Positions 1,467 to 25,538 of a stretch of 30,585 bases of DNA are shown piece by piece. The stretch lies in IMG/VR virus record IMGVR_UViG_3300032220_000192, positions 1 through 30,585 of that record, one strand, 5' to 3'. A program made the position numbers and the translations under genes. Source of the stretch: a virus. The notes below the pieces were generated by a model. The model saw nothing but the letters and a program-made list of their open reading frames with translations, made no database searches and was not told the origin of the DNA. Within the stretch, counting starts at the first letter, position 1, and every line of letters starts with the position of its first letter.

Positions 1467-1493
1467 TAAGTATGATTTAGTTGAATTCTGCCG
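1467..1493 (-). promoter_or_regulatory. Putative phage late promoter 1
   Basis: The minus strand shows CGGCAG (1493-1488), 12 nt, then TCATACTTA (1475-1467), then 6 nt and the ATG at 1460. The upstream box lies within the last codons of the large terminase gene. It matches six other copies with identical 12-nt spacing. Confidence 0.75.
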
Positions 1494-2718
1494 AAGGTGT
1501 TTGTCTGCCCGAGTAGACCCCATACTTCTTGCCCTCCGCCTTGAGCATCAGAACAGCATAGCGCAGGGAGTCCATCGCGTGATTCCAGTCGTCGATGGGC
1601 TTATCTGTCCCGCTTCGGTAGGCGTAGTTGTAGTACTCTTGGATTAGATTGGTAGATTCTGGATGGACAAAGACCTGGAAGGTTCTTACACGGTCGATTC
1701 CGGCCCTGATTGAATCTGGACCTTTGGCCGTTGGCCTTATGTTTCTATAGCCCATCCGCCTAATCGTCTCTATAGCCTTGGGCTCTGCTGAGTCTGCATA
1801 GATCACTGCGTCCCTTGGAATCCCCAGTTTAACCATGCGGTCGAAGATATCTTCGTTAGTTAGCCCCGTCTGGTAGAGAAGCTCTTCCACCCAGAGGGTT
1901 TTAGACTTCTTTCTTACCTTCAGGAGAACAGTAGGATCTGAGGCGAACCCCCAGTCCATCCCATAGACCACCTCGGCTTCTGGGTCGGGCTGAAAGTCAA
2001 AGTGCCAACCCTTGAAGACCTGCCCTTCTCCAATGTCTCTCCACTCGCCCAGGATGTGGTGTGCAAAGTAGTCCTCGTCTTCTTCTCGGAGGGCTTCCCA
2101 TTCGGCAACCTTAGTTGGGTCCAAGTTTTCTGCGTTGTCTAAGTAGGTGGTGTGTAGATACCCGTGTGTGCTAAGCCACTTAGGGTTGGCTTGGCCATCT
2201 GGCAGATAGAAGCGTTTGAACAGCCAGTGCGACTTAGAAGTCGGGTTAAACAGAACAAAGATTCTCCTCTCTGTTCCCTTCTGTCTAAAAGAATCCACCA
2301 GCTTTAGGTATTCCTCTTCGCTTGGTAATTCTGTGGCTTCGTCTATTAGCAGGTGGGTAACCCTAGCTAAACCTTTCGACTTAGCCGTGATTGTGCCCTC
2401 TGCCAACTTCATAGCGTGGGTCAGAATCATGTTGTCGTTCCGCTTGTTCCTGATCTCGTCCCCTTTAATCTCTAAGTAGCCAGTAAGTCCCCACTGACCA
2501 ATAAGGTCTAAGATGTCTCGGTAGATGGAGTTGGTCAAGGCCTTGCTTGTATACCTGGCTATTACCCCTCTGAAATACTCTGGCTGCATTAGCCTCATTA
2601 GAAAGTAGGCTGCAATGTTCGTAGACTTACCTGATGCACGACCTCCGCTTATGACCCAGTAGGTCTTGTCCTCGTAGAAGATTGGGGCGTAGGCTGGCAG
2701 GAAAGCAAATGCAGACAT
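1477..2718 (-). CDS. terL: Terminase large subunit
   Basis: This is the packaging motor ATPase and headful/end-cutting nuclease. The 413-residue protein has a Walker A motif GGRASGKST (about 25-33), a Walker B motif LLIDEATE (about 123-130), and an RNase H-like nuclease with acidic residues in GMDWGFASDPT (about 253-263), IYADSAEP (about 306-313) and DDWNHAMDSLRYAV (about 376-389). The arrangement resembles the Terminase_3/PBSX-type group. The length is normal for the family and all expected catalytic acids are present. Its ATG overlaps the stop of the small subunit as TAATG. The stop is followed at once by a late promoter element, whose upstream box is embedded in the final codons. Confidence 0.95.
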   Translation of the reverse strand: MSAFAFLPAYAPIFYEDKTYWVISGGRASGKSTNIAAYFLMRLMQPEYFRGVIARYTSKALTNSIYRDILDLIGQWGLTGYLEIKGDEIRNKRNDNMILTHAMKLAEGTITAKSKGLARVTHLLIDEATELPSEEEYLKLVDSFRQKGTERRIFVLFNPTSKSHWLFKRFYLPDGQANPKWLSTHGYLHTTYLDNAENLDPTKVAEWEALREEDEDYFAHHILGEWRDIGEGQVFKGWHFDFQPDPEAEVVYGMDWGFASDPTVLLKVRKKSKTLWVEELLYQTGLTNEDIFDRMVKLGIPRDAVIYADSAEPKAIETIRRMGYRNIRPTAKGPDSIRAGIDRVRTFQVFVHPESTNLIQEYYNYAYRSGTDKPIDDWNHAMDSLRYAVLMLKAEGKKYGVYSGRQTPSAEFN

Positions 2719-3032
2719 TAGTCTTCCCTAGGTTGTGGTGGCGGTAGGATAATCTGAACGGGTTCTATATTGGACCCATCTGCGTTCTGCAAAGCAGTCA
2801 CAGTTAAATCTGGGAGAAACTTCTGGGACAACTTAGTTAGCACCTGAACATAGTCTTTAGGGCTTTCCACTCTTAGTTGTTCTAGGGCAGCCTTGAAGTT
2901 CTCCTGCTCTGCCTCCAAGATGTTAGCAAAGAGTTCTCTGACCATTGTTGTAGTCCGGTTGGGGTTTCCCGGTGGTCTACCTGCTGGGTTTCCTGACTGG
3001 CCAGGCTGAAATAAGTGATTCCTGTTTTCCAT
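2718..3032 (-). CDS. Terminase small subunit-like protein (DUF5681-like N-terminus)
   Basis: This is a 104-residue protein whose N-terminus FQPGQSGNPAGRPPGNPNR (about 8-26) is the glycine/proline-rich motif typical of DUF5681-type phage proteins that often stand in for the small terminase. A helical middle and a proline-rich C-terminus follow. It directly precedes the large terminase with a TAATG overlap, the standard place for the DNA-recognition subunit. The DNA-binding role is inferred. Two copies of an 11-bp repeat lie just upstream and may be an operator or recognition site. Confidence 0.65.
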   Translation of the reverse strand: MENRNHLFQPGQSGNPAGRPPGNPNRTTTMVRELFANILEAEQENFKAALEQLRVESPKDYVQVLTKLSQKFLPDLTVTALQNADGSNIEPVQIILPPPQPRED

Positions 3033-3045
3033 TTGTTATTATCAG

Positions 3046-3079
3046 TTTACTTTACAAATTAGTAAGCTTTTACTTTACA
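3046..3079. repeat. Two 11-bp direct repeats upstream of the small terminase gene
   Basis: The sequence TTTACTTTACA occurs at 3046-3056 and 3069-3079, 23 bp apart, just ahead of the small terminase start at 3032. The second copy covers the stop of the preceding gene. About two helical turns separate the copies, which would suit a dimeric DNA-binding protein. The function is unknown. Confidence 0.5.
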
Positions 3080-3276
3080 TATTGTAAAAACATCTTCTTG
3101 ACCCTTGTCACTACCGCTCTTCTGCAAGAGCCGCAGCCGGTGTCTCTTCTATTCTCCCCTGTTTCTAAGTTGAAGATAGCATAAGCAACTGCAACCTCTT
3201 CAGGCTGCCAGATCTTCTTGTCCGTCTCGAACCAGCTTTTGTGCTGGTCGAATAGTGCTTTTACCCTCTCGTTCAT
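3070..3276 (-). CDS. Small hypothetical protein with GCGSC motif
   Basis: This 68-residue basic protein contains TGCGSCRRAVVTRVKK (about 46-61), a paired-cysteine motif followed by a positively charged helix. Its start overlaps the stop of the membrane-protein gene (TAATG) and it ends 38 bp before the small terminase. I recall no certain function. Small CxSC proteins near the terminase are common in phages of Bacteroidota, but whether they bind metal or DNA is not shown here. Confidence 0.7.
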   Translation of the reverse strand: MNERVKALFDQHKSWFETDKKIWQPEEVAVAYAIFNLETGENRRDTGCGSCRRAVVTRVKKMFLQYVK

Positions 3277-3548
3277 TAGAATAGTTTGGTGTGAATCTTA
3301 TCTGCCTCGTTACAGAGCCATCCTGTCATTAACGCTATCGGTATCGCTATCATCCAAGGTGTATGTAGAATCGGCAGATGCATTACTAAGCTCATCCAAA
3401 ACCCCAAGCATGTGGCGCACGTTAGAGGCGGTGAGTTCAGCCCGAGCTTCTTCAGGATCCAGATATAGGGTTGTGAGTTCAGGACTGGGGGTATTGCCGT
3501 TGCAAGAACTGCAGCCTGTAGAATTAGGTTCAGTAGTGAAAAATTCAT
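3276..3548 (-). CDS. Small membrane protein with CATCLGFW motif (holin candidate)
   Basis: This 90-residue protein has about three hydrophobic segments (roughly residues 4-24, 43-63 and 66-82). The motif CATCLGFWMSL between the first two matches the CxxCxGFW signature of small phage and bacterial membrane proteins (DUF1360-like). It is the only clear multi-pass small membrane protein in the window, which makes it the best holin candidate, though it sits before the terminase rather than beside an endolysin. It shares most of its DNA with another ORF in a different frame (3310-3684). Its TAATG link to the following gene supports this frame. Confidence 0.7.
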   Translation of the reverse strand: MNFSLLNLILQAAVLATAIPPVLNSQPYIWILKKLGLNSPPLTCATCLGFWMSLVMHLPILHTPWMIAIPIALMTGWLCNEADKIHTKLF

Positions 3549-3684
3549 TGATGATTTCTATTTTAGTTGTTTGTTTTAGTTTTAGACGTTCCCTCTGTCT
3601 CATCACGTCTCTCGTCATTCTGCTCTCTTCCGTCACGAAGTAGATCTCCGTGCCCTTGAATTTCCATTTGATTTGTTTGGTCAT
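3310..3684 (-). CDS. Hypothetical protein overlapping two neighbours in other frames
   Basis: This 124-residue ORF starts MTKQIKWKFKGTEIYFVTEE and contains GCSSCNGN (about 57-64), a paired-cysteine motif like the one in the 68-residue protein downstream. The first 121 bp overlap the charged 3' end of the sigma-like gene, and about 239 bp overlap the membrane-protein gene. The N-terminal half reads like a real beta-rich protein. The C-terminal half is acidic and low in pattern, and may be only the read-through of another gene's DNA. Either a genuine overprinted gene or a partly spurious extension is possible. Confidence 0.45.
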   Translation of the reverse strand: MTKQIKWKFKGTEIYFVTEESRMTRDVMRQRERLKLKQTTKIEIINEFFTTEPNSTGCSSCNGNTPSPELTTLYLDPEEARAELTASNVRHMLGVLDELSNASADSTYTLDDSDTDSVNDRMAL

Positions 3685-4237
3685 TGTGTTTTGTTTTTAT
3701 TTCTGTCGCAGTCCTAACATGTCTCCGAATCCTGTTGATTGTGAGGGAGACTGAAGTTCTGGGTATTTGAGTTGCCCTAGCCAACGATGAAACTGTGTGG
3801 TTCTCGCTAAGGAAGGTTTCGAATAACTTTCTGTCGTACCAGGGGAGTTTAGCAAGTTCTTCTCGGACTCGATCTGCCCGCTCCATGAACTCTGGATCCT
3901 CTTCGTAGATCTCGTCTGCAAATTTGTCTGTGATTTCATCGTTGTGTTTTCTATAAGTATGAAAGAACTCAGAAGTGGTAGACCGCCATTGGTTCATGAT
4001 TATGCGAACAATGTAGAATCTTCCACCACCCGAAGCTACTATGGTCAAACAGTCTTTCTTCCTTAGGAATTCTTCAAGACAGAAGTGAAGTAGTTCTTCA
4101 GACAGATCGCTGTTGTTGGAGATGCGAGTAGCAGCGGTCAGTAGCTCCCCGTAGTTCTCCCGCATAAACTGATCTATCGTCACGTTCCACTTTAGTCTAT
4201 TTGAAAGATGTCCTCTGGACCTGTTGAACCTTCGCAT
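3563..4237 (-). CDS. Sigma-70/ECF-like RNA polymerase sigma factor, candidate late regulator
   Basis: The 224-residue protein has two helical domains resembling sigma regions 2 and 4. The first (about 23-95) includes YGELLTAATRIS and a stretch with FYIVRIIMNQWRSTTSEFF. The second (about 127-175) contains LPWYDRKLFETFL and an HTH with ATQIPRTSVSLTINRIRRHVR. The spacing fits a group of small sigma-like proteins seen in Bacteroidota phages. A charged tail (about 180-224) overlaps the next ORF and may be dispensable. The start at 4237 overlaps the preceding gene by 46 bp; a later start (GTG near codon 19, or ATG at codon 25) is also possible. It lies last in the early/middle operon before the structural genes, so it is the natural candidate to recognise the seven late promoter elements. 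That link is inference. Confidence 0.7.
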   Translation of the reverse strand: MRRFNRSRGHLSNRLKWNVTIDQFMRENYGELLTAATRISNNSDLSEELLHFCLEEFLRKKDCLTIVASGGGRFYIVRIIMNQWRSTTSEFFHTYRKHNDEITDKFADEIYEEDPEFMERADRVREELAKLPWYDRKLFETFLSENHTVSSLARATQIPRTSVSLTINRIRRHVRTATEIKTKHNDQTNQMEIQGHGDLLRDGREQNDERRDETEGTSKTKTNN

Positions 4238-4533
4238 GCATCTTTAACGTCCGAGAAGGTAAAAGAAAGAGATCTAGCCCCACCTTGAAATCCACGATTG
4301 ATCGAAATGTAACCCTTCATCTGTAGAAGATTAAGGGTTGTGAAAATATCATTGGGCTGGACATTGAGTTTGAATGCTAGCCACTGGTCGCTGGAGAAGC
4401 AGCATCGATTCTGGATCGACCAGCTGAACACGTAGTTCAGAAGCATCTTCTCCATAAAGGAAAGTCCTTCTTCTCTAAAGATCCATGGGTCTATTCTCCA
4501 GAGGATCGCAGCTTCTGTTCTATCGTCTGCCAT
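4192..4533 (-). CDS. Hypothetical winged-helix-like protein
   Basis: This 113-residue protein has a helix-rich region LSFMEKMLLNYVFSW (about 24-38), then a segment with SSDQWLAFKLNVQPNDIFTTLNLLQMKGYISI. This has the feel of a winged-helix DNA-binding fold (recognition helix, then a strand ending KGYI). It starts with a TAATG overlap to the preceding 70-residue gene and ends within the sigma-like gene. A transcriptional or replication accessory role is plausible but not shown. Confidence 0.6.
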   Translation of the reverse strand: MADDRTEAAILWRIDPWIFREEGLSFMEKMLLNYVFSWSIQNRCCFSSDQWLAFKLNVQPNDIFTTLNLLQMKGYISINRGFQGGARSLSFTFSDVKDACEGSTGPEDIFQID

Positions 4534-4745: not shown

Positions 4746-4747
4746 TA

Positions 4748-4957: not shown

Positions 4958-4990
4958 ATTGTATATATCTTTTTTAATTTAGAACTGAAA

Positions 4991-6391: not shown

Positions 6392-6402
6392 TAGATTAAA
6401 AC

Positions 6403-7463: not shown

Positions 7464-7499
7464 TTTTATATTTGTTTATTTGTTTATTTTTGTTTGCAT

Positions 7500-7556
7500 A
7501 AAAAAAAGACCTTGTCTCCTTCGGATGTGGGGCTCCTCGGGAAACAGGTCTTTAAA
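7500..7556 (-). terminator. Rho-independent terminator after the regulatory operon
   Basis: On the minus strand AAAGACC and TGTTTC pair with GAGACA and GGTCTTT (one bulged A), with a large loop, followed by eight T. This gives a stem of about 13 pairs and a clear U-tract. It ends the operon 9498-7634. The loop contains CCCCAC (7532-7527), complementary to GTGGGG at 7578-7573 just upstream, so extra structure is possible. Confidence 0.85.
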
Positions 7557-7633
7557 GTCTTTGTTGGTATCCCCCCACGGAATAATAAACTGTTATGTAT
7601 TATACTATATACCTTTTTTTTTGTTTCTTTTTT

Positions 7634-11599: not shown

Positions 11600-11626
11600 T
11601 AAGTATGAAATTCACAGAAACTGACA
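11600..11626 (-). promoter_or_regulatory. Putative phage late promoter 2 (portal operon)
   Basis: The minus strand shows TGTCAG (11626-11621), 12 nt, then TCATACTTA (11608-11600). ATG codons follow 3 and 6 nt further on. It shares spacing and sequence with the other six copies. Confidence 0.8.
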
Positions 11627-11671: not shown

Positions 11672-12589
11672 ATGACAAAAGATTCAAAGAAAATTGCGAC
11701 AAATTTATTACTTCACATTAACGGTGGTCTTGGTAAGTGCATCATGGCTACTGCAGTTATTGCGTCTTATAAAAGAACGTATCCGGACTCGAAAGTCGTG
11801 GTAGTGTCAGGCTACCCCGAAGTGTTTGTTAACAACCCATACGTCCACAAAAACTTTCCCTTTGCCACGGCTTACCTCTGGCAAGATTATTACGGCCAGC
11901 CTAGCTGGAACGTTTCTGCCCATGATCCGTACATGGAACAGCATTGGATCAAAAATGACAAAGTTCACCTTATAGATATCTGGTGTCGCATGCTAGGTGT
12001 TGATTCGGTCCAAAAGACCCCATTGCTTTATTTTGCAGGTCCAGAAGTCGACGAACTCCAAGCTATGATTAGAGTGGATAAGCCTCTAGTGGTTGTGCAA
12101 TCTACCGGTGGTGCAAATCCAGCTGCTAGATCTTGGACACGTAATCCACCGATTGGTGAGTTCGACGAGTTTTTAGCTAGGTATAAAGAGACACACTATG
12201 TTGTCCACCTGTGCTTACCAGAAACACCTGCGTTAACTAACATACACCAGCGGGTGGAAAATTTAAACCGCCGACAAGCAATGGCTTTAATTTATTTCTC
12301 ACAAGAAGTTGTTGGTATTGATTCGTATGCTATGCATGCTAGGGCGGCGAACTTAGAGGCTGGGCCTACCACAATCTTCTTCCCTCTAGCCGAATCAGTG
12401 GATAGACTGGGGTACACCAGAAGCGGATGGAATAATATAGTCCCCACCGCTCAAATACAGCAAATGCTGTTGGACCACACTGATTACTATGCTACAGTTT
12501 TCAAGCTGTCCATAGAAAATGCATCTGAGAATTGCCCTATCCCGGTTGGAACCAAATGGTTCGATTTCGATGGAGGACGACCTGTATAA
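11672..12589 (+). CDS. Glycosyltransferase family 9-like protein
   Basis: The 305-residue protein resembles ADP-heptose:LPS heptosyltransferases (GT9, GT-B fold). Its N-terminus contains INGGLGKCIMATAVIASYKR (about 17-36), matching the GGLGD-type nucleotide-sugar motif. A central VVVQSTGGANP and a C-terminal VGIDSYAMHARAAN match the second sugar-nucleotide binding lobe. In phages such enzymes may modify host surface sugars, virion proteins or DNA; which applies is not clear. It is one of only two rightward genes. Upstream, a TATAAT box (11653-11658) lies 13 bases before the ATG, in the intergenic region shared with the portal promoter. The opposite orientation suggests independent acquisition. 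Confidence 0.75.
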   Translation: MTKDSKKIATNLLLHINGGLGKCIMATAVIASYKRTYPDSKVVVVSGYPEVFVNNPYVHKNFPFATAYLWQDYYGQPSWNVSAHDPYMEQHWIKNDKVHLIDIWCRMLGVDSVQKTPLLYFAGPEVDELQAMIRVDKPLVVVQSTGGANPAARSWTRNPPIGEFDEFLARYKETHYVVHLCLPETPALTNIHQRVENLNRRQAMALIYFSQEVVGIDSYAMHARAANLEAGPTTIFFPLAESVDRLGYTRSGWNNIVPTAQIQQMLLDHTDYYATVFKLSIENASENCPIPVGTKWFDFDGGRPV

Positions 12590-12837: not shown

Positions 12838-13598
12838 TAGAGTGCATATTTAGTCTGGACATAAGACCAAAGATCACTTAAATCACCTGCGGATAAAACT
12901 GAACCCCTGGTAATAATTACCTCTGCAATAGAACCAGCAAAATTATAAGCGTAATTACTACTATCATAACCTCCTATAAAAAACTTTGGATTTGTATTTA
13001 CTAAATAGGATCCAGATTTAGCATTAGAAGAAGAATTAAAATATGTATAAATATCGGTAGATGTTAATCCTATTCCTGCAAGAAGAGTTGCATTTAAAGA
13101 TGTTCCCGAAATAGAATTAGTTAATCCCCCTATAGATCCTGTCCACCCGTTGATGGATGAATCTTCTATATTAATACTCCAAGCTCCCCTGTTAGCAACA
13201 GATGCATCAGAACCTCCTCCAATAAAATTAAAAAATGCTGCTCCCAATGATTGATTTTTCCTTGCTATTATAAAACAATAAAGAGGAAAAGATCCAGAAT
13301 AAATAAAATCTGTATTATTTTCTAAAATATTAATAACAGTAGGCGTATCCGTTGAAATAAAATCTACAGTTGGTAAACCATTAAAATTTGCATTAGAAGA
13401 TGTAAATCCAGGCTGGTTTGCAACAGTTGCCTGAATTACTGATTTAGAGGTTAAGCTATCCTGCCATGCAGAAACAGTAGAACCATTCAAAGTTATCCCC
13501 ACATCTGATTTAAACCAGTTTTCTATGCCTGGTAAATCTGCTGGTGTCCAGCCTCCGCCCGCCGGGGCTGCCATAAAAGCAAATGGTGTGGTAAACAT
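12837..13598 (-). CDS. LamG/concanavalin-like virion protein
   Basis: This 253-residue protein begins with a short hydrophobic segment, then LPGIENWFKSDVGITLNGST, a typical start of laminin G-like lectin domains in phage tail and capsid proteins. Beta-strand patterns continue to the end (IIARKNQSLGAAFFNFIGGG; FAGSIAEVIITRG near the C-terminus). Such domains bind sugars or other virion parts. It follows the large collagen/YadA-like protein with a TAATG overlap and precedes the basic small gene. Likely role: receptor binding or virion decoration. Confidence 0.7.
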   Translation of the reverse strand: MFTTPFAFMAAPAGGGWTPADLPGIENWFKSDVGITLNGSTVSAWQDSLTSKSVIQATVANQPGFTSSNANFNGLPTVDFISTDTPTVINILENNTDFIYSGSFPLYCFIIARKNQSLGAAFFNFIGGGSDASVANRGAWSINIEDSSINGWTGSIGGLTNSISGTSLNATLLAGIGLTSTDIYTYFNSSSNAKSGSYLVNTNPKFFIGGYDSSNYAYNFAGSIAEVIITRGSVLSAGDLSDLWSYVQTKYAL

Positions 13599-15847
13599 TA
13601 TGCGAAGTTTAGATTAGCGTTTCCGTAGTAGCCTGTGATGCCCGCGATGTAAACCAAAGACACAGCGTCCGTTGCTCCAATTGCGGTGGACAGAGTGGGT
13701 CCTGTTCCCCCGGCAAAATTAACGTCTGCTCCAAAGTCCACTGTGTATCCACCCGAGCCTCCCTGAGTTAGGAAGAGAGTGTAGACTGCCCCGTCGATCG
13801 GATTAGACTTAGTTAATGTGGTGATGCTGGAAGTTAGAGTTAAAGTCTGAATGTTAGAGTTGTCCCAGTTTAAAGTTACAGAACCCCCGGTTGATCCAAC
13901 TGCGTTAGTCTTAGAGGCTGCTTGACCAAAAGCAACTAAAGAGTTAACGTGAGTTGTATCATTTCTAACTTGTCCCCCGGTTAGTCCAGATAAACCTATT
14001 AAAGCAACTCCAGATAAAACCCCAGTTAAACAGTTATTAAATCCACCGATAATTGTATTACAGTTTCCTGTAGTGTCTATTATATTACATTGTCCGATAG
14101 ACACTTGGTTTGTGCCGGTTTCATTTGTACCAATTCTTCCATTAGCCCCAATTAAAACTGAATTCGCATGTGTGTTATTACCTGACAAGTTTCCGATAGT
14201 AATAGTACTTGCTGCTGTTGCTCTGGAAGAAAATCCAATAGCAATACCTCCATTAGCCGCTGCAAGATCATCTCCAATCATAATTGTTTGACCTACTCCT
14301 CCATAAAGAGCTCTTCCTATATTAACAGAATTACTGCTTAAAGAGTTTATATTATATCCAATTCCTATAGACTGAGTTCCTGCTGCAGTTAAATTTCCGA
14401 TTGCAATAGCTTCAGAAGCAGTAGAAATTGCTCCATTTCCTATAGCAATACCAGAACTAGTTGAACACACAGAATTACCGATTGCAATTCCACATGCTGC
14501 AGTAGATTTAGCCGATTGCCCAATTACAACAGAATTTTTACCAGTAGCCTCTGTTGTATTTCCAATGACAACTGAGTTGCAAGCACCAGTTCCTCCGACA
14601 GAAGAGTTGCCTAAGACGATGGTGCCGGTTGCTCCTGGGAATACTGTGTTAAAATGTCCTACTGAAGATGTACAGTTTCCAACATTTCCGATATGTTTAT
14701 TACAGGATCCAACAATCAAAGAATGACAGTAAGAAGTTCCATCCCCTATCTTACAGTTGTTTTCCCCTAAAATTGTTTGTGCGCAGGAAGGAAAAGATAA
14801 ATTACAAGTTTGATTAAAAGAACCAACTACTGTTGATTCTTGTAATGCAGCTGTGCAGTTAATATTACACTGACCAATCATGGTTTGTCTCTGACCTCCA
14901 CCTCCGCCGTTATCGAAATTTGAAATTCCTATAAGTAAAGAATTTGCCCCGAGAAGGGTGTTATCCTTTCCAAAAATAGTTCCCCCTACGTTATTTGGAA
15001 CATTGTTGCATCCATAAATAACATTTCCTGATAATCCCGCGAACATCCGGTTGCAAGATCCAAAGATGATTGTATTGTCCCATCCACAGTTGTTGTTTCC
15101 AAAGGTTAAAGATCCTGTAGAGTGTCTTGAATTTGTATTTCCAACTGTTATAGATCCAGCTCCGTATGAAGGATTATTATCGAATCCTATGATAATACCT
15201 GTACTATCTAAGGGTGTCGCTCCTGCAGTATGACAACCAATTTCTATAGTCTTACAAGAAGTAAATGCAGCTGATTGGTCAATATTAAATCCTATCGCAA
15301 TTTTATTCTGTCCTGGGTTTGGATTAGTTTTATTAATATTAGGTCCGATAGCAATCTGGTTTGGTCCTGCAGCAGTTGCTGTTGCTCCGATTACAACTGA
15401 GTTAAAAGAACCCGAAGTTGCTGTCGCTCCGATAGCTGTAGCGACTAAAGAGTTGGTCTGCTCCAAAGTAATCGGTGAAGATGCTCCCGCTCCTGTTGCC
15501 CCGTTTACACCAGAAGTTCCGGAAGTACCAGAAGCACCGGATGTTCCGCTTGTTCCAGAAGAACCCGAAGCACCAGAGGTACCACTTGTTCCTGACGTTC
15601 CATCTGTTCCGGATGTTCCCGAACTGCCAGATACCCCAGAAGTTCCAGACGTTCCTGCTGCTCCTGTTGGGCCTATTGGTCCACCGGTTACATTGCCAGT
15701 AAAGTTAAATGTGGTTGTGGAAAGTTCGAACGGAAAGACGTTTCCGAATCCGTCTGTTACCGGCTGTAGTGTGCTCAGTGCTCCAGAAGCCCCTATGTTG
15801 AGTAGAGCTCCATATGTGTCTTTGATTTGATCGCCTGCTAAGTTCAT
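13598..15847 (-). CDS. Fibre/adhesin with collagen-like tract and YadA-head-like repeats
   Basis: This 749-residue, glycine-, serine- and asparagine-rich protein has a collagen-like stretch of Gly-Thr-Ser-Gly repeats (about 68-115). After it, from about 130 to 640, comes a long series of left-handed repeat units with the pattern xxIGNxxxxxxNSVVIG, as in SSGIAIGNGAISTASEAIAI. The latter is the head repeat of trimeric autotransporter adhesins (YadA/Hep_Hag). The repeats contain many cysteines (NNC, GSCN, QCN), unusual for a phage fibre. A C-terminal beta domain ends the chain. It likely trimerises into a fibre that meets the host surface. It has its own late promoter element and an ATG 7 nt from the second box. 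Confidence 0.75.
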   Translation of the reverse strand: MNLAGDQIKDTYGALLNIGASGALSTLQPVTDGFGNVFPFELSTTTFNFTGNVTGGPIGPTGAAGTSGTSGVSGSSGTSGTDGTSGTSGTSGASGSSGTSGTSGASGTSGTSGVNGATGAGASSPITLEQTNSLVATAIGATATSGSFNSVVIGATATAAGPNQIAIGPNINKTNPNPGQNKIAIGFNIDQSAAFTSCKTIEIGCHTAGATPLDSTGIIIGFDNNPSYGAGSITVGNTNSRHSTGSLTFGNNNCGWDNTIIFGSCNRMFAGLSGNVIYGCNNVPNNVGGTIFGKDNTLLGANSLLIGISNFDNGGGGGQRQTMIGQCNINCTAALQESTVVGSFNQTCNLSFPSCAQTILGENNCKIGDGTSYCHSLIVGSCNKHIGNVGNCTSSVGHFNTVFPGATGTIVLGNSSVGGTGACNSVVIGNTTEATGKNSVVIGQSAKSTAACGIAIGNSVCSTSSGIAIGNGAISTASEAIAIGNLTAAGTQSIGIGYNINSLSSNSVNIGRALYGGVGQTIMIGDDLAAANGGIAIGFSSRATAASTITIGNLSGNNTHANSVLIGANGRIGTNETGTNQVSIGQCNIIDTTGNCNTIIGGFNNCLTGVLSGVALIGLSGLTGGQVRNDTTHVNSLVAFGQAASKTNAVGSTGGSVTLNWDNSNIQTLTLTSSITTLTKSNPIDGAVYTLFLTQGGSGGYTVDFGADVNFAGGTGPTLSTAIGATDAVSLVYIAGITGYYGNANLNFA

Positions 15848-15854
15848 TTGTATC

Positions 15855-15881
15855 TAAGTATGATTTTGTTGTTTTCTGCCG
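15855..15881 (-). promoter_or_regulatory. Putative phage late promoter 3
   Basis: The minus strand shows CGGCAG (15881-15876), 12 nt, then TCATACTTA (15863-15855). The ATG of the fibre gene is 7 nt further on. Confidence 0.75.
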
Positions 15882-16966: not shown

Positions 16967-18331
16967 TTATGCTTTTAGATCTCCAAATAAGTACCAAGTG
17001 TCGGTTGCTGCTTTAACCAAGGTTGATCCAGAGTATTGTGAATTTAAGGCCAAATATCCATTTGCTGAATTAATTGTTACCCCTGCTGCTCCTGTTAGAC
17101 CAAGTGCACCTGTTCCTCCTCTTGAAATTAGAATCTGAGAACCAGTTGTGATAGGAACCACTGCGTTTGTGTTGATTGTAAAAGTCAGTGCTGCTGCAGA
17201 AGCTCCGATAACCATTGTATTAACATCTGCTGCTGCAAAAGTGTAGTTGGCGGTCTTGGTAGAATTATTGACGATCGAAGTATCAACACCGGAAGTTCCC
17301 GACGTTCCATTAGCCCCTGAAGTACCCGAAGTTCCATTAGCCCCGGAGGTGCCAGAAGTTCCGTCTATGCCCGAAGTACCAGATGTGCCGTTGATACCAG
17401 AAGTACCAGACGTTCCACTTGTTCCGGATGGGGTTGCCACCAGGATGAATAGAACAGGATCGTTGTTGCTGAACGAGTGTGTGGAAGTTACCAAGGTAAC
17501 TGGGAGTGTCCAGTAGGTGGTGTTGTCAACTGGGGTTCCAATAGTCCAAGTTTGATAGTTGACATGGTTTGCCTGGTCTTGAATTGTAATGGTAGATCCA
17601 GAGGTTAGATTAGCAAAGAAAATATCAACGTTATTTCCATTTTGGTCTTCCTCGCTAACGTTCAGAGAAGTTGCAGATGCCTGGGTAGCATTGTTCCAGA
17701 TGATGTGTCCTGACCCAGGATCACCAGATGTGATTGTAGTCTTAGCCTGGTAGTTGAAGAAGGAGTTAGAAAAACCCGGTTCACCCTGTGGACCAGTTGC
17801 TCCGTTTATTCCTGAAGTACCCGATGTGCCAGAAGTTCCATCTGTACCACTTGTTCCATTTATGCCCGAAGTACCCGAAGTTCCATCTGTACCACTTGTT
17901 CCATTTATGCCCGAAGTACCCGAAGTTCCATCTGTACCACTTGTTCCATTTATACCCGAAGTTCCCGATGTACCGTTAGCCCCGGAAGTACCCGATGTAC
18001 CATTAACCCCGTTAGCACCTGAAGTTCCCGATGTACCATTAACCCCGTTAGCACCTGAAGTTCCCGAAGTTCCGTTTGCTCCACTGGTTCCAGAAGTACC
18101 ATTAGCCCCGTTAGCCCCAGAAGTACCGGATGTTCCCGAAGTACCCGATGTACCTGCTCCTCCAGTTCCCCCTGTTAGAATATTTGTTCCACTGGAATTG
18201 ATAGCATAAACTGTTGTTCCGTCCGTGTACATTGTCACATAACCAGCAGACGGATTGCTGGGAGTAGAAGGGACTACTGAAAAGTCTATTTGTCCACCGG
18301 TCTCTCCGATGATAAATTTAGCATTGCTCAT
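16967..18331 (-). CDS. Collagen-like repeat fibre protein
   Basis: The 454-residue protein has a short N-terminal domain (about 1-55), a long Gly-Thr-Ser-Gly/Ala-Asn-Gly tract (about 56-180), a globular insert (about 190-300) and a second repeat tract (about 305-350). It ends in a beta-rich domain with [20 protein letters not shown] and [11 protein letters not shown]. The Gly-X-X rhythm is that of phage collagen-like fibres that form triple helices. It overlaps the preceding gene by 14 bp. The DNA carries tandem 45-bp repeats (17835-17969), so copy number may vary between phages. Confidence 0.75.
17835..17969. repeat. Three tandem 45-bp repeats within the collagen-like gene
   Basis: Units of 45 bp begin at 17835, 17880 and 17925; the last diverges near its end. 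Each encodes 15 residues of the Gly-Thr-Ser-Gly tract. A second 36-bp duplication follows, with units starting at 17994 and 18030. The repeats are direct and in frame, so slippage would change fibre length without breaking the frame. Confidence 0.85.
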
Positions 18332-18986
18332 AAAGGCTATATGTTTGTTTTAAGAAAATATTTTGATTGATTTTTACTGACCCCCCGTTCTCGATTAGGA
18401 CAGGGCTGCAGTAGGTGATGGTGTTTGTTTCGACTACGAAAGCCTGTCCGTCTAAAACTGTGCAGGGGAAGTTGGCCATCGGAATAGATGTAACATACAC
18501 AACGTTGAAGAGACCTTCGTTGTCCGAAATATATGGAACAAATTCTATCTCTTTTTCACACACCACGTTGGTGTAGAGGAATGCCTGTCCTCTGTCTATT
18601 TCTTCATATTCTAGACACTGGTCCCAAATTGTGGTTGCAAAGTTCCAAAATGCTTCGTCCGTGTCCCACACTGCACAAGCTTCTGATCCGTTGGCAAGCG
18701 GATCGATAGATCCTGAAGATGTGTTGAAGACGATGTATTCGAAGTTTCCTTCTGGATAGAGATAGACCGATCCGTTGACTGGATCAGAAAAGCTCTGCAC
18801 CGACACAGTGTCGAACTCTAATTCGACGAATCTGCTGTTTCTACGCACCACCGTGGCCACAACCGCAAAGGTTTGCCTCGAGTAGGAGTTAGTTAAAATT
18901 ATGGTGAAGAAATTCCCAACAGATGTGGAAATCGTGTCAGCATAAATAATAACGTTATTGGTAGACCCTGGAGTTAGATTTAACAT
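18318..18986 (-). CDS. Hypothetical structural protein
   Basis: The 222-residue protein starts at the ATG at 18986 and begins MLNLTPGSTNNVIIYADTIS. I prefer this ATG to the GTG one codon earlier (18989), because the ATG is exactly 6 nt from the late promoter box. The protein is rich in beta strands, with several cysteines (EACAVWDTDEAFWNFATTIW and a CSPVLIENGG region), and has no recognised domain. Position after the tail tube and before the collagen-like fibre suggests a tail-tip or baseplate role. This is inference. Confidence 0.6.
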   Translation of the reverse strand: MLNLTPGSTNNVIIYADTISTSVGNFFTIILTNSYSRQTFAVVATVVRRNSRFVELEFDTVSVQSFSDPVNGSVYLYPEGNFEYIVFNTSSGSIDPLANGSEACAVWDTDEAFWNFATTIWDQCLEYEEIDRGQAFLYTNVVCEKEIEFVPYISDNEGLFNVVYVTSIPMANFPCTVLDGQAFVVETNTITYCSPVLIENGGSVKINQNIFLKQTYSLYEQC

Positions 18987-18992
18987 CACACA

Positions 18993-19019
18993 TAAGTATG
19001 AAACTTAGGATAACTGACA
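18993..19019 (-). promoter_or_regulatory. Putative phage late promoter 4
   Basis: The minus strand shows TGTCAG (19019-19014), 12 nt, then TCATACTTA (19001-18993), and ATG 6 nt further on. The first box coincides with the T-tract of the terminator just upstream. Confidence 0.8.
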
Positions 19020-19048
19020 AAACAAAGCCCCGAGAGAACCCCGGGGCT
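19017..19048 (-). terminator. Rho-independent terminator after the tail-tube gene
   Basis: On the minus strand AGCCCCG (19048-19042) pairs with CGGGGCT (19032-19026), seven pairs with a 9-nt loop, followed by TTGTTTTG. The T-tract runs into the first box of the next late promoter. Confidence 0.85.
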
Positions 19049-19690: not shown

Positions 19691-20635
19691 TTAGACTGTA
19701 GAAACGAACTGAGAAGCGTAAACTGCAGTTCCCATTCTGAAGGCCGCTAGCACATTGACAATATCAGCTGACGGATCGTAGTACATCTTCAACTTGTCAG
19801 CATCGTCGATTAGACCAGTTCCGAAGAAAATGTATTTCTTAGGTCCTACTAGGATGTGAGAGTTTGAAGAAAGTCCTGGTGCACCAAAGATAGTTACGTT
19901 AGTACCTGGCCAGATGAAAGATGCAGGAGCGTCTCCAGTGTAGTTTGTGATGTTAGGGTATTGGCTGATTAGAGCGTTACCTTTAGCCATCAAAGCTTGA
20001 ACTGCTACGGCATAATTCGTCATTGAAAGATACATCACTAGATCTCTTTCTTGCTTAAGAGCGTTAGAAAGTTTGTTGATGATTCCCCAGATAGAATCGA
20101 ATGCAGTTCCAACTGCCAAAGGTACAGTGATACCAGCACCTGTTCCGCCGATACATCCGTTAGCTACAGTAGCTTGTGCAAGAAGACCGTCTAGAGATCC
20201 ACCATCACCAGCCCAAATAGTGTTTTCAACATACTGAGAGATGTTGTCTACTTTATTTTGAGCAATCATAGCCTCGAAAGGAACTGATTCAAGATAGGCT
20301 GTAGGGCTAAGCTGAGAAGACAACCAGTATTGGCGTAGATCTTCTGGGCAAAGTTGCTCCTTAAGCATTTTAGTTTGTACTACAAGATCAATTTGATCGA
20401 ATACAGTAGAGTTACCAGTAGCACCACCTGGTCCTACTGTTGAAGCGTTAAATCCACACGCATAATCTATGATGTATGGATTAGAGTTTAGCAAGTTGAT
20501 TGCAGAAGTTCCTGCAGTCTTACCAGCTTGTACAGTCAAAAACTGTACTGAGTAAGGCTTAAGAAGTGCCTTGCTGATTAGGTCGGTAGATAGCTGATCA
20601 GTATAAACTGATAAGCCGGTTAAATCGAATGACAT
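19691..20635 (-). CDS. Major capsid protein (HK97-fold)
   Basis: This is the shell subunit. The 314-residue protein starts MSFDLTGLSVYTDQLSTDLI. It has the pattern of HK97-like capsid proteins of Bacteroidota phages: an N-terminal arm, a spine helix region, LSNALKQERDLVMYLSMTNYAVAV (about 190-213) and a C-terminal beta region ending in AAFRMGTAVYASQFVSTV. It follows a scaffold-like gene and a protease gene, the classical order. It ends 11 bp before a terminator hairpin. No Shine-Dalgarno is seen; the leader is A-rich. Confidence 0.85.
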   Translation of the reverse strand: MSFDLTGLSVYTDQLSTDLISKALLKPYSVQFLTVQAGKTAGTSAINLLNSNPYIIDYACGFNASTVGPGGATGNSTVFDQIDLVVQTKMLKEQLCPEDLRQYWLSSQLSPTAYLESVPFEAMIAQNKVDNISQYVENTIWAGDGGSLDGLLAQATVANGCIGGTGAGITVPLAVGTAFDSIWGIINKLSNALKQERDLVMYLSMTNYAVAVQALMAKGNALISQYPNITNYTGDAPASFIWPGTNVTIFGAPGLSSNSHILVGPKKYIFFGTGLIDDADKLKMYYDPSADIVNVLAAFRMGTAVYASQFVSTV

Positions 20636-20654
20636 AGTTTTTTAGTTTTATTTT

Positions 20655-21260
20655 TTAGAATCTTTTGTTGGTTTTGAAAGATGCTTTAAGAGATCTTAGG
20701 TGATCAACTCTTGCGTCTAGCGGACTTTCTTTTTCTTCTGATGGGTTAGCATTGAAAGTAGAAATTTTAGTTGCTGCCGGAGTAGCAGACATTTTTTCCA
20801 TCTTCTCTCTGTAAGAAGCCATTTCTTCTTTGACTGTTGCAACTTCTTTAGCAATCTCTTCGACTGCTTCCATGCACTGCATAATCATTTTAGTCATGTC
20901 TTCTTTCATGATTTCTCCTTCTGTTTTAACTGGCTCGTTTACAGCGTCTCCAGTTGGGGGAATGATATCTCCCTCTTTTGCCGCTTCGACTTCTACCTCA
21001 ACCTTTGGTTCTGGTTTCTCTACTGCGGTGATTGTTCCTTGGGCGTCAACGGTAACTTTAGTGCCATCTTCAGTGGTGTGAGTTCCTTCAGGAGCAGGTC
21101 CTTTATCTCCAGATTCAGATACAACAAATATCTTCTTTCCTGGTTCAAAAGCTTCCGCTTCTACTTTGGTCACGCCATCTTCCAACATAGCTTCAGTCAT
21201 CTTCACTTCCATTCCCAGAGCAATTCTGATTTGGTTTAATTTTTCTTCGTAAAAATTCAT
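20655..21260 (-). CDS. Scaffolding-like protein
   Basis: This 201-residue protein is acidic in the middle and helical near the end, where MIMQCMEAVEEIAKEVATVK (about 126-145) suggests a coiled coil. The C-terminus is short and basic (LRSLKASFKTNKRF), typical of scaffold proteins that contact the capsid subunit. It lies between the protease and the capsid gene. Its late promoter lies 33 bases upstream of the ATG, so this transcript has a normal leader, unlike the other six. Function inferred from context. Confidence 0.65.
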   Translation of the reverse strand: MNFYEEKLNQIRIALGMEVKMTEAMLEDGVTKVEAEAFEPGKKIFVVSESGDKGPAPEGTHTTEDGTKVTVDAQGTITAVEKPEPKVEVEVEAAKEGDIIPPTGDAVNEPVKTEGEIMKEDMTKMIMQCMEAVEEIAKEVATVKEEMASYREKMEKMSATPAATKISTFNANPSEEKESPLDARVDHLRSLKASFKTNKRF

Positions 21261-21293
21261 GGTTAAACTTATTTTAGATTTGGTTTATGTCTC

Positions 21294-21320
21294 TAAGTAT
21301 GAATCAAAAACAATCTGACA
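21294..21320 (-). promoter_or_regulatory. Putative phage late promoter 5 (capsid operon)
   Basis: The minus strand shows TGTCAG (21320-21315), 12 nt, then TCATACTTA (21302-21294). The ATG of the scaffold-like gene is 33 nt further on, so the mRNA would have a leader of about 27 nt. Confidence 0.75.
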
Positions 21321-21324
21321 TTTC

Positions 21325-23094
21325 TTAGATTGACTTCAGGATCCTCACGACTCTGTCGTACATCTCCCTGTCTTTTTTGTACTGCTCGTAGTCTTCTTTC
21401 TCCATAAAGTTGCCCTCGATGGAAAAGCCATTGAGCTTGCCTTCTTTGATTTGCTTCCACACTTCTGCATCTTGAACACGCATTGCCACCATCCAGGTTC
21501 CGATAGGAACATCCAGACCATATTTGGTGTTGGCTTTGTCGTCTTCTGTTTCTACTATCCAAGTTTCCTTGACGTAAGAGTTAGCCCCGTTAGCTCCGTC
21601 GTGTTCTACATTAGTAGATCCGTTGCGAAGTTCCCGCATAAACTTTTCTGCAATCTTAGCAATAGTTGCTGCAGAAAATTTAACTGCATACCTTTCCTTA
21701 GTTTTCTCGTCCACTCTAGGAATCACCATGTCCGGAATCATTGCTGGTCCTATCACGATGCGTTGGTCTTCAGAAGCAAAGAACTGCTTGGACATTTTCT
21801 CTGATGCCTTCGGGTGCCCTTTAGGAAGTAGGTCGTTGTCTTGATTGTAGTCCTTGTCATATCCGGATCTGTTGCCGGCTAGGATATTTAGAAAAGCGTT
21901 TACTCTCGCCATTGCCCACTGTGATCTCTGCATGCCTCTCTTGCCAGGAGTTCCTACCGAATAGGCACCCGAACCTCTGCGCCACACAGCCTTTAGCATA
22001 CCAAGTGTAGCCTTCTGGCTGTCCTGTGGGTTCTTTTCGTTGTGTGCTTCTATTTTGTCCTTCAGAGTTTTTTCCACAGAATCAGGAACTTCTACCCCTC
22101 CTCTTGTTGTTGTAGAATCTCCGGGTTCGTTCTTAGCGGATCCAGTTCTGCCTCTTTCCTCTTTAGGAATTCTTGCAAGCGGTCTGTCGCCTTTGTTGCC
22201 AGATGCTGGTGCTGCAAACTTTTCTAGCTCTGGGTGGTAGCCGATGTAAACCAGTTCTCCAGAATCAGTAATTGTTTCACCGTCTACTACAACTTCTGCA
22301 GGCTCTATATTGTCTGGGCTTTCGTACCAGTATTGGACATCATATCCTCCGTCTTCTTTAAGTTCAACAACTAGACCTCTGTCGTAGTTTTGATCTTCTG
22401 CCTGTAGGATAACCTTTTGCCCTCTTGGAAGTGGAATACCTTGCAGAGCATATTGGTCTTTCCGCTTTGGGATTTCATCCACATACACAGGAAGTGCAGA
22501 AACGTCGATTGACAATTCTTCTTTACGGATTTCCTTTAGCTTCTTTTCCGCCCAAGAAACTCCAGCTTCTCCACCCCAAGCGTCCCACATCAACTTGCCA
22601 CAGCCTTCGCCGTAGGGTGTATCTGAATTCTGCCTGTGTCTTTGGAATGCAGACATGCGGGCGATTGTGTCTTCTGAAATTGGTTCACGATTTGCCAGTT
22701 GGTTTGCTCTTGCTTTACCTGGTCCCATTCCACAGTCTCCCCATCCGTTTTCTTCCGCCCAAGCCAGTGCACGCTTTGCGTTGTTAACTGCTGCCTCTGG
22801 ATAGTCTGTGTAGGTTTCTGCTGCAAACTCTGCTGCCGAAGCCTTTTCTCTGTAGGTGCTATAGCAAATTGCTGCAGCTTGGTCGGTTTCATACCCTTCG
22901 TCTCCTACTAGCTTTGCTATACAACGTGGGATAAACTCGTCTTCTGATTCTCCAGCAGAAGGGTCCACGAACTCTTCACGTTTAAAGGCAAGCCAATTTC
23001 TCTCTATGGCAGGTATCTCTACCAAAGAAATAGCAGACACCCCAGACTCGATTAGGTCGTCTATAATTTCTAAGTCTATAATTTTGTTTTCCAT
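21325..23094 (-). CDS. Head maturation protease (XkdF-like) with large inserted domains
   Basis: The 589-residue protein begins with the N-terminal segment typical of XkdF-like proteases (SGVSAISLVEIPAIERNWLA, about 17-36). The protease core is at the C-terminus (about 438-565), with candidate catalytic residues H498 in NVEHDG and S558 in LNGFSIEGNF. Between them are four accessory stretches: a cysteine motif with IPRCIAKLVGDEGYETDQAA (about 55-74), an aromatic region with WAEENGWGDCGMGPGKARAN (about 112-131), a beta domain around 212-292, and a domain with QKATLGMLKAVWRRGSGAYS (about 360-379). The core probably cleaves the scaffold or capsid during maturation. The inserts may bind DNA, capsid or host. 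It follows the tape measure with its own late promoter. Confidence 0.8.
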   Translation of the reverse strand: MENKIIDLEIIDDLIESGVSAISLVEIPAIERNWLAFKREEFVDPSAGESEDEFIPRCIAKLVGDEGYETDQAAAICYSTYREKASAAEFAAETYTDYPEAAVNNAKRALAWAEENGWGDCGMGPGKARANQLANREPISEDTIARMSAFQRHRQNSDTPYGEGCGKLMWDAWGGEAGVSWAEKKLKEIRKEELSIDVSALPVYVDEIPKRKDQYALQGIPLPRGQKVILQAEDQNYDRGLVVELKEDGGYDVQYWYESPDNIEPAEVVVDGETITDSGELVYIGYHPELEKFAAPASGNKGDRPLARIPKEERGRTGSAKNEPGDSTTTRGGVEVPDSVEKTLKDKIEAHNEKNPQDSQKATLGMLKAVWRRGSGAYSVGTPGKRGMQRSQWAMARVNAFLNILAGNRSGYDKDYNQDNDLLPKGHPKASEKMSKQFFASEDQRIVIGPAMIPDMVIPRVDEKTKERYAVKFSAATIAKIAEKFMRELRNGSTNVEHDGANGANSYVKETWIVETEDDKANTKYGLDVPIGTWMVAMRVQDAEVWKQIKEGKLNGFSIEGNFMEKEDYEQYKKDREMYDRVVRILKSI

Positions 23095-23100
23095 TCTTAT

Positions 23101-23127
23101 TAAGTATGATTTAGTCTAATCTTGCCA
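23101..23127 (-). promoter_or_regulatory. Putative phage late promoter 6
   Basis: The minus strand shows TGGCAA (23127-23122), 12 nt, then TCATACTTA (23109-23101), and the ATG of the protease gene 6 nt further on. The first box differs from the consensus in its last base. Confidence 0.7.
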
Positions 23128-25504
23128 ATTGTGAAAGCTTGTTGTCTGCTTCTTGCTGGGAAGTCATGTCGGAAGCTACCACGTAGGTTTTAACTATTGG
23201 CTGTTGCATGTTGTTGTTTACCTGTGGTCCAGGTGTATTTCCTTGTGCATTGATCGATTGCAGAAGAGGCATGAAGTTTGCAGTGGATCTGCGGTTGACT
23301 ACAAATTCACCGCCTTCAAGTTCTCCGAGTGCAGTCTTAATTCCTCCAAGGTCATGGGAAGGTCCGCCCAGTAGTCCACCTTCTGCATATTTAGATGGTG
23401 CTGTACCACTACCTGCCCCGCCTGCTCCACCGCCTGCTCCTCCACCTCCAGATGGTTCAAACTTAGAAGAAGCAATCTTGGCAACGTTGGCAGCAGAAGT
23501 AATAATTGCAAAAGCTAAAGATGCAATACCTGCTGGGTTGGGAACCGGACCGATAGCAACTGGAGACTGAGCTAAAGAAGATGTGATTGCTTTAAATCCA
23601 TCTATGATAGCCAAAGACAGTTGCAGCTTCTTATTAAATTCAAATTGCTTCTTTAAAATTGCCTCTTCCTCTTTGGAACCTTTTTCTGCCTTGGCTAATT
23701 TGTTAGCAAAGTAGGCATCTCCAACGGCTTGGATAGCTCCTTGTGCTTCAGTAGCAAGTTTAAGTCCCTGGTTTATTTTATCGAGCTGATCTTCAAAATC
23801 TGTTTGACGTAGATCTTTTCTTTTGTTAAACAGTTCCAACTCCAACTTATAGTATTCCTCGTTAGACTTTTCGGTGGCAGCAAGTTTTTCTTCTAGCTCT
23901 TTGATTTCTAATTCTGCAAGTTGTCTTCTTAGCTCTCTTTCAGACAAACCCTTCTGCTGGAGAAGAGCAGCTTCTTTGTCGTAGAATCTGGTGATGCCTT
24001 CGATTCTCTTGTTGTAAGCCTCTTTAGCATCTGCAATAGCCTTCTCTTCTTCTGCTTTCTTCTTCTCTTCTTGAGATTTAGCAAAAGCATCTTCTTGTTC
24101 TTTTAGCAGTTCTAGCTTCTGGGCTTCCAACTTCGCAATCATATCTGCGTTACCCTTAGCCTTTTCGATCAGCTTGTTGTAGTTGTCTGTGGTCTGCTGT
24201 TGTTGTTGGGCAAACTTCTCTGCATCTGTGTTGACTAAAGCATCTGCCAACTCCTTCTGTAGGGCTTTTTCTTTGTCTGCAGCATCCTGATTTATCTTTG
24301 CTACTGCTAAATCATATGTCTCATCAGCCTCTAACTTCAACCTTTTCTTCTCTTTAGCTGTGTATTTCCCCCTGTCGATTTCTCGTTTAGTGTTTTCTTT
24401 ATCTAATTCTGCAGCTTTTCTATCTCTTTGCTCCTGGTCTTTAATAGAAGCCAACAGATTCTTTTGATCTGCAGCCCTAATTTTATCTTGGGCAGCAAGT
24501 CTTTCGTCTGCGTAAGCTTTAGCTTGTGCAGCAATCTCTTTGTTCTTCGCTTCTTCTTCTGCCTTTAACTTCTTTTCTTCTTTGTTGAAACCTCTTCTTT
24601 TGGCAGCAAGATCCTGTTCTGTCTGTAGAAGTTTAATGGTTGCAGCATCTATTGCATCTAAATTTTCTTTAGAATCTCCGTCTTGTCTTTGTTTTTCTTT
24701 TGCTGCATTAAGTCTTTTCTTAGCAAGATCTACTTCTTGTTGGGACAAAGAAGTTTCAGCAGCTCGAATTGTGTCTAAGGCTTTCTTCCTATCTGCATAG
24801 GAGGCATTGGTATCTGACAGAAGTTCTTTAGTTTCTGCAAGTTGTTTGTTTTGCTTTGCACGTGCAACTTCTAAATCCCCCTCGGCTTCGTCAATTTCGT
24901 TTAGAGTCTGGGCGAGTTTCATTCCGTCTTCTGCAGCTTGTGCAAAAGAAAGACCGAAGAACTTACCAACTTCGATTGCTGCCTCCATCGCCTTTACAAG
25001 ACCTTCTGCTACAAGAGCAGCAAGTTCTCCAATTGCTTTAGTGATTGGCTTTATGATGCCACCCAGTGCACCGAAGATTTTATTTAGGGCAAAAGTTCCC
25101 TTTTCGGTAGAGTTGATTGCTTTATTTACTGCTGCAAAAATTGCAACCAAAGCTGTAATCACTGCCCCAATTGGGTTCATGACAAATCCAAGAGCAGCCT
25201 TAGATAAGCCCTGGAATCCTGAAATTGCCCCGCCGATTGGTCCTGGGATAGTGCTCAGAGACTGACCAATGTTCTTTAACCCATCGATAGCCCCTTTAGG
25301 CTTTAGTCCGTCAAGACCTTCTTTCTGCAAAACCCCTAAAGAGGTCTTAGCTTTGTTGGATTCCTGGACAAGTTTACTAAAATCCGGATCGTTAATATCA
25401 GATGTTTTTATCTGCTCGTCAAGTGCAGCTATCTGATCTTGGATTCCCTTAATTGTCTTAGCAGCTGGTTCACCGTTTATTTTTAGTATAAATTCTTTTG
25501 CCAT
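23111..25504 (-). CDS. Tape measure protein
   Basis: The 797-residue protein has hydrophobic segments near residues 85-135 (including PIGAVITALVAIFAAVNKAI) and a very long charged coiled-coil region (about 195-600, rich in KAEEEKAIADAKEA-type runs). A glycine-rich stretch follows (about 690-715), then a C-terminal motif with YAEGGLLGGPSHDLGGIKTA. This is the layout of siphovirus tape measures, which set tail length and help DNA entry. If the usual 0.15 nm per residue holds, the tail would be about 120 nm. It has its own late promoter, with the ATG 7 nt from the second box. Confidence 0.85.
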   Translation of the reverse strand: MAKEFILKINGEPAAKTIKGIQDQIAALDEQIKTSDINDPDFSKLVQESNKAKTSLGVLQKEGLDGLKPKGAIDGLKNIGQSLSTIPGPIGGAISGFQGLSKAALGFVMNPIGAVITALVAIFAAVNKAINSTEKGTFALNKIFGALGGIIKPITKAIGELAALVAEGLVKAMEAAIEVGKFFGLSFAQAAEDGMKLAQTLNEIDEAEGDLEVARAKQNKQLAETKELLSDTNASYADRKKALDTIRAAETSLSQQEVDLAKKRLNAAKEKQRQDGDSKENLDAIDAATIKLLQTEQDLAAKRRGFNKEEKKLKAEEEAKNKEIAAQAKAYADERLAAQDKIRAADQKNLLASIKDQEQRDRKAAELDKENTKREIDRGKYTAKEKKRLKLEADETYDLAVAKINQDAADKEKALQKELADALVNTDAEKFAQQQQQTTDNYNKLIEKAKGNADMIAKLEAQKLELLKEQEDAFAKSQEEKKKAEEEKAIADAKEAYNKRIEGITRFYDKEAALLQQKGLSERELRRQLAELEIKELEEKLAATEKSNEEYYKLELELFNKRKDLRQTDFEDQLDKINQGLKLATEAQGAIQAVGDAYFANKLAKAEKGSKEEEAILKKQFEFNKKLQLSLAIIDGFKAITSSLAQSPVAIGPVPNPAGIASLAFAIITSAANVAKIASSKFEPSGGGGAGGGAGGAGSGTAPSKYAEGGLLGGPSHDLGGIKTALGELEGGEFVVNRRSTANFMPLLQSINAQGNTPGPQVNNNMQQPIVKTYVVASDMTSQQEADNKLSQLARLD

Positions 25505-25511
25505 GTGTTAG

Positions 25512-25538
25512 TAAGTATGATTTTGGTGCTTTCTGTTA
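25512..25538 (-). promoter_or_regulatory. Putative phage late promoter 7
   Basis: The minus strand shows TAACAG (25538-25533), 12 nt, then TCATACTTA (25520-25512), and the ATG of the tape measure gene 7 nt further on. The first box overlaps the stop of the upstream 939-residue gene. Confidence 0.7.

Follow-up and report, generated by a model that had tools for sequence, protein, structure and literature searches.

Phage-encoded sigma-type control of late genes is known from T4 (gp55) and SPO1 (gp28 and gp33-34), whose proteins and promoters belong to other families and take other forms than those described here. RinA/ArpU regulators are encoded beside the terminase genes in Gram-positive phages. 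In Salmonella phage 7-11, the sigma factor SaPh711_gp47 drives bipartite late promoters (GTAAtg-(16)-aCTA) in vitro (PMC8948821). Another phage sigma factor, gp36 of phiEco32, serves middle as well as late genes; unlike the protein considered here, it has no region 4 homology and its promoter, tAATGTAtA, is a single element (PMC8948821, PMC4331800). Late-gene control is little known in Bacteroidota phages.

The window analyzed here is the whole of a 30,585-base viral record with a 123-base direct terminal overlap (positions 1 to 123 equal 30463 to 30585), which therefore maps as a circle of 30,462 bp; one ORF spans the circular junction. The main plus-strand gene is an ORF divergent from the portal gene (11672-12589, 305 amino acids), the product of which is 51 to 90% identical across many relatives and belongs to no known family. 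In the tail-fiber ORF 16967-18331, the core is of low complexity, a G-T-S repeat, and gives matches to many tail fiber families. Rfam gave no match in the window, including the noncoding stretch 7464-7633, which contains AT-rich repeats and, just ahead of a T run, a hairpin; this stretch may include a terminator or an early control region.

Relatives, all of them uncultured phages, were collected using the sigma-like protein, the portal protein, and TerL as queries, and the genes of the window were mapped onto 26 records, analyzed in full or in large part. No close DNA relative of the window was found in the phage collection, and tblastn searches of it gave no match for the sigma protein or the capsid candidate. 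Homology of the portal protein (25% identity) links the window to the cultured Nonlabens (Persicivirga) phage P12024S. A profile search of genome contigs with the sigma alignment returned only two weak partial matches, in Bacteroidota MAGs, and thus yielded no prophage and no named host. The portal link and these weak matches, the only pointers to a host, suggest that the phage may infect Bacteroidota.

The preliminary description of this DNA had listed seven copies of the nonamer TCATACTTA on the minus strand, each with a hexamer at a constant distance of 12 nt upstream, and the positions of these nonamers and hexamers proved exact. The seven intergenic sites stand; the count of seven does not, as an eighth copy at 3962 to 3954 had been missed. 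Eight exact copies, all on the minus strand, compare with 0.34 expected, and none of 100 shuffles contained 8 or more. Each of the seven intergenic copies has YRNCAR exactly 12 nt upstream, the bipartite pattern with at most one mismatch was found 8 times versus 0.11 expected, and the hexamer family is restricted to one spacing in the window when spacings of 8 to 23 are compared. Because the first two letters of the nonamer are its least conserved, the core is written as TGnCAg-N14-ATACTTA. A weight matrix trained on the relatives, with the window left out, gave exactly 8 hits of at least 20.2 bits in the window, all on the minus strand, with the next best at 9.9 bits; the top score across 200 simulated genomes was 18.6 bits.

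Coordinates of the predicted late promoters and associated features in the window
Feature	Position	Strand	Details
Predicted late promoter 1	1467..1493	-	CGGCAG (1493-1488)-N12-TCATACTTA (1475-1467); predicted transcription start 1461, ATG 1460; precedes ORF 990-1460, then neck-like ORF 616-990
Terminase large subunit (terL)	1477..2718	-	four genes downstream of the sigma gene
ECF-type sigma factor (predicted)	3563..4237	-	224 amino acids; weak profile matches, family alignment, models, fold matches
Eighth site, within the sigma gene	3954..3980	-	TACCAC-N12-TCATACTTA (nonamer 3962-3954); 20.9 bits
Predicted late promoter 2	11600..11626	-	TGTCAG-N12-TCATACTTA; precedes portal gene
Predicted late promoter 3	15855..15881	-	CGGCAG-N12-TCATACTTA; precedes fiber ORF 13598-15847, ATG at +8
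Predicted late promoter 4	18993..19019	-	TGTCAG-N12-TCATACTTA; precedes ORF 18318-18989 and downstream tail ORFs, ATG at +7 (18986)
Intrinsic terminator of capsid operon	19026..19048	-	abuts predicted late promoter 4
Putative scaffold/capsid operon ORFs	20655-21260, 19691-20635	-	
Predicted late promoter 5	21294..21320	-	TGTCAG-N12-TCATACTTA; precedes putative scaffold/capsid operon, ATG at +34
Predicted late promoter 6	23101..23127	-	TGGCAA-N12-TCATACTTA; precedes protease-like ORF 21325-23094, ATG at +7
Predicted late promoter 7	25512..25538	-	TAACAG-N12-TCATACTTA; precedes tape-measure-like ORF 23111-25504, ATG at +8

The -7 element of the Bacteroidota primary-sigma promoter (consensus, -33 TTTG and -7 TAnnTTTG) was present at none of the seven sites, and the window contained no convincing TTTG/TAnnTTTG pair. 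Generic sigma-70-like sites occurred at chance level (33 versus 34.7 expected). One sequence on the minus strand, TAAATTTG at 9525-9518, matches the Bacteroidota -7 element; it is preceded by a terminator-like hairpin and lies directly before the methyltransferase gene and the early operon. A scan of all viral contigs for an exact 15-base pattern returned many unrelated contigs and was dropped as evidence, because chance alone gives such matches in so large a collection.

The same pair of elements was found in relatives at the orthologous starts of ORF 990-1460, the portal gene, ORF 18318, the capsid operon, and the protease and tape measure genes. The sites of the portal gene, g990, g18318, the capsid operon, and the protease gene are retained down to approximately 55 to 65% protein identity. 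A weight-matrix scan of the circle and its relatives, which the preliminary description had put forward as a check, gave, in addition to the 8 hits in the window, 4 to 8 forward and 0 to 2 reverse hits per genome in eleven relatives that have the sigma type of the window (leave-one-out matrix); apart from hits at the intragenic site, nearly all of the strong ones in these relatives preceded late genes. In two further relatives, with a sigma protein 35 to 38% identical to that of the window, matrix scores were poor; ATATTCA replaces ATACTTA there, and the spacing is unchanged. The strong terminator that runs into late promoter 4 has a counterpart in relatives, with a similar hairpin upstream of the site.

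Among 101 dereplicated ATACTTA sites near gene starts in the relatives (window excluded), the strong information outside this anchor was at positions -20 to -16 (T64 G76 n C81 A88 percent) and just downstream, where the start base and the ATG fall; the opposite strand of these sites had no information at -20 to -16. A relaxed TGnCA was located 15 nt before ATACTTA at 61 sites and at no more than 5 sites for any other spacing from 5 to 29 nt, and the reverse-strand control histogram contained 0 to 4 sites. Twelve ATATTTA sites and seven ATATTCA sites peaked at the same spacing to TGnCA as ATACTTA. In its anatomy, TGnCAg-N14-ATACTTA is thus a predicted -35/-10 promoter. Of 72 bipartite sites, 71 have a purine 6 nt after ATACTTA, and so do 21 of the 22 among them that have no nearby ATG; the position is a purine in 59% of ATACTTA controls that lack a -35 and in 63% of opposite-strand controls. 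A base at which transcription starts would be expected to show such a pattern.

The preliminary description had also assigned a sigma-like protein to positions 3563-4237, at the end of an operon. A sigma fold is indeed predicted for this protein, but the end-of-operon position was not correct, with three short ORFs and terL following. Sigma2-like helices (residues ∼14 to 96) are connected by a linker (∼97 to 114) to sigma4-like helices (∼115 to 178), and linker residues 101 to 111 and the C-terminal tail are disordered in the model. Profile matches of the window protein were weak (Sigma70_r4_2, E 0.032, below the curated cut-off; PHROG sigma, E 0.029); Sigma70_r4_2 was matched by 10 of 14 family members, with a best E of 4.9e-4 that is also below the cut-off. 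The family is recognizable down to ∼34% identity, and IPRTS in the helix-turn-helix of region 4 is invariant in all 32 aligned members. For region 2 of the window protein, recognition came only from the fold and from the homologous proteins of the sister clade described below.

An AlphaFold2 model built from the 32-member family (mean pLDDT, 80) replaced a first model with a pLDDT of 67. The predicted helix order is sigma2-linker-sigma4, and both Foldseek and VIA-align ranked sigma factors at the top, with sigmaE, SigL, and AlgU as the best structural matches; a sequence search of the PDB gave no match. The model matched E. coli sigmaE with a Z score of 10.2 over 152 residues, sigmaE region 4 on -35 DNA with a Z score of 9.8 (rmsd, 2.8 over 68 residues), and RpoE sigma2 with a Z score of 8.6 (rmsd, 3.2 over 82 residues). 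Domain placement was poorly predicted (pTM, 0.45), and the whole-chain rmsd was large (10 to 19) because sigma2 and sigma4 are placed differently; the fold evidence therefore applies to each domain separately. ECF-type (group 4) sigma factors have sigma2 and sigma4 domains only, in about 150 to 220 amino acids, and the domain make-up of the window protein, as modeled, is of this type.

It is very likely that a phage ECF-type sigma factor, together with the host core polymerase, fires the late promoters via TGnCAg/ATACTTA, with starts at +6 and minimal leaders. The early operon, presumably read by the host primary sigma, would encode this small two-domain protein, which would associate with the core RNA polymerase of the host. 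Region 4 of the protein would recognize TGnCAg as the -35 element, and region 2 would recognize ATACTTA, the -10 element 14 nt further on. Seven late units on the minus strand (neck, portal, fiber, tail, capsid, protease, and tape measure) would thereby be activated, and perhaps terL as well via the eighth site. Transcription would begin at the purine 6 nt past the -10, giving most late mRNAs a leader of 1 to 2 nt or none. The elements, with their spacing, strandedness, conservation, and position relative to start codons, are observed, as are the predicted sigma fold and the joint change of -35 and region 4; that the protein works with host core polymerase and binds these sites directly, that the units are transcribed late, and that transcription starts where predicted and yields leaderless mRNAs is what we infer.

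The pair of elements might instead be the site of a phage late activator, a functional analogue of RinA/ArpU, with initiation by a host sigma. The location of the sigma-like gene close to terL and its region 4 helix-turn-helix both resemble those of RinA/ArpU, and the weak sigma profile score of the window protein would also fit, but two unlike elements spaced like a -35 and a -10, always 14 nt apart and showing neither a dyad nor a direct repeat, are difficult to reconcile with such a site. The near-invariant purine at +6 and the best matches of the two-domain model, which are to sigma factors, also argue against an activator; the 6 to 7 nt between element and ATG leave no room for a separate host-type promoter, and TAnnTTTG is absent from the sites. 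Thus, it seems unlikely that the pair is an activator site.

The best evidence on whether the phage protein reads the motif comes from a sister clade (G020, G021, G022, G025, and others), in which TerL is 66 to 76% identical to that of the window and the sigma protein is homologous to the window sigma over both domains (hhalign E, 9.7e-15). Region 2 of the sister proteins (SPFYSKYRK) resembles that of the window sigma, and the Sigma70_r2 profile recognized four of five homologous sister proteins, with a best E of 0.0019 that is below the curated cut-off. Region 4, however, has VDKNFVW where the window sigma has IPRTSIS. The -10 of the sister clade, CATATTTA, is similar to that of the window. 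In this small sample of 13 sites at gene starts, NNGAAA lies exactly 14 nt before ATATTTA at 10, with three lacking it, and none has TGNCA at that spacing; NNGAAA was found at only 1 of the 101 sites of the window's class. The -35 therefore differs together with region 4, whereas the -10, the spacing, and region 2 are alike, which fits direct reading of the motif by the phage protein. Motif and sigma share a common ancestry, and the covariation is thus not fully independent. Other late genes of this clade have diverged too: those portal and capsid genes that were found are only about 25 to 28% identical to their counterparts in the window. TerL, which is much closer, appears to have passed from one lineage to another.

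Bacteroidota are rich in ECF-type sigmas, and one of the host's alternative sigmas could conceivably read these promoters while the phage protein, whose binding to them is deduced, has another role. Such a sigma would have to account for a -35 that, with no change in spacing, differs whenever region 4 of the phage protein differs, and for the retention in the phage family of a protein with a predicted sigma fold; we regard a host sigma as slightly less likely still than an activator. Conservation at gene starts, the fixed spacing, the predicted sigma fold, and the tracking of region 4 by the -35 support the phage sigma cascade that had been proposed from the window.

Of 68 bipartite sites, 36 have the A of an ATG at +7 or +8; the corresponding counts are 4 in controls without a -35 and 0 on the opposite strand. 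Five intergenic sites in the window have ATG offsets of +7 or +8 (7, 8, 7, 8, and 7). The portal gene has its annotated ATG at +4, and a second ATG (11593, +7) is the conserved start; the capsid operon has the only intergenic site in the window with a real leader. It is scarcely credible that the nonamer acts in translation, as a ribosome-binding element of the mRNA: it lies at a tight distance, 6 to 7 nt, before most start codons, and Bacteroidota are without Shine-Dalgarno sequences (PMC6847099), but it is coupled at one spacing to another element, located 20 nt upstream, is separated from the capsid operon ATG by 34 nt with this offset kept in relatives, and is followed by a +6 purine that tracks the nonamer and not the ATG.

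With initiation by the phage sigma at the +6 purine and an ATG at +7/+8, leaders of 1 to 2 nt (or none) are therefore predicted for most late mRNAs, which on this geometry are probably leaderless. In Flavobacterium johnsoniae, a representative of the Bacteroidota, the mean leader is 33 nt and 87% of leaders are above 10 nt (PMC6847099). If true, the leaderless reading contrasts with the likely Bacteroidota hosts, in which mRNAs are mostly leadered, and would represent a distinct route for translation of virion genes in bacteria that lack Shine-Dalgarno signals. On balance, we consider it probable that a phage sigma initiating 6 nt past the -10 leaves nearly all of a late regulon leaderless and that region 4 and the -35 have been exchanged together in nature.

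The eighth site reads TGTCAC-N14-ATACTTA in two relatives, and its codons are kept in several; much of this conservation is explained by the encoded HTY residues. The window has no other candidate site before terL. In two relatives, however, ORF g2718, which lies just upstream of terL, is preceded by a weak intergenic site, and in P12024S a copy of that phage's own motif precedes gp35, two genes upstream of terL. Possibly, the eighth site serves as an internal late promoter from which the genes down to terL are transcribed.

The P12024S motif, AACA-N15/16-CGTTAAT, was found in this study and is not described in the papers searched; it lies immediately before six gene starts, with the ATG at +5/+6. 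The P12024S protein gp33, encoded four genes before terL, is annotated with sigma region 2; it is 16% identical to the window sigma in alignment, and the promoter elements differ. The sigma2-sigma4 two-domain fold and the bipartite -35/-10 reading are shared with E. coli sigmaE and M. tuberculosis SigL and SigH, whereas the window sigma is phage-borne, has no anti-sigma in view, and is only 10 to 19% identical to bacterial ECF sigmas. No report in the literature searched joins Bacteroidota phages, a phage sigma, and mapped late promoters; the Bacteroidota-type phage family, the region 4/-35 switch, and the leaderless geometry were not found described there. The motif provides a ready map of predicted start sites for an uncultured phage family and a candidate orthogonal sigma/promoter pair, and the switch amounts to a natural experiment on whether promoters are read in a modular way.

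Phage 7-11, which has the closest of the proven systems, is an unrelated, larger, phiEco32-like phage with other promoter elements, and no leaderless geometry was found described for it (PMC8948821). It resembles the window in having a phage-encoded sigma (gp47), bipartite promoters at eight sites before late genes, and starts close to the promoter element, at 6 to 9 nt; the activity of gp47 was proven in vitro with the core enzyme of E. coli (PMC8948821). With its sigma gene and a bipartite motif before several late units, the window appears to have the regulon layout of the gp47 type, and, given the late sigma with bipartite promoters proven in 7-11, the mechanism proposed here would be of an already known kind (PMC8948821).
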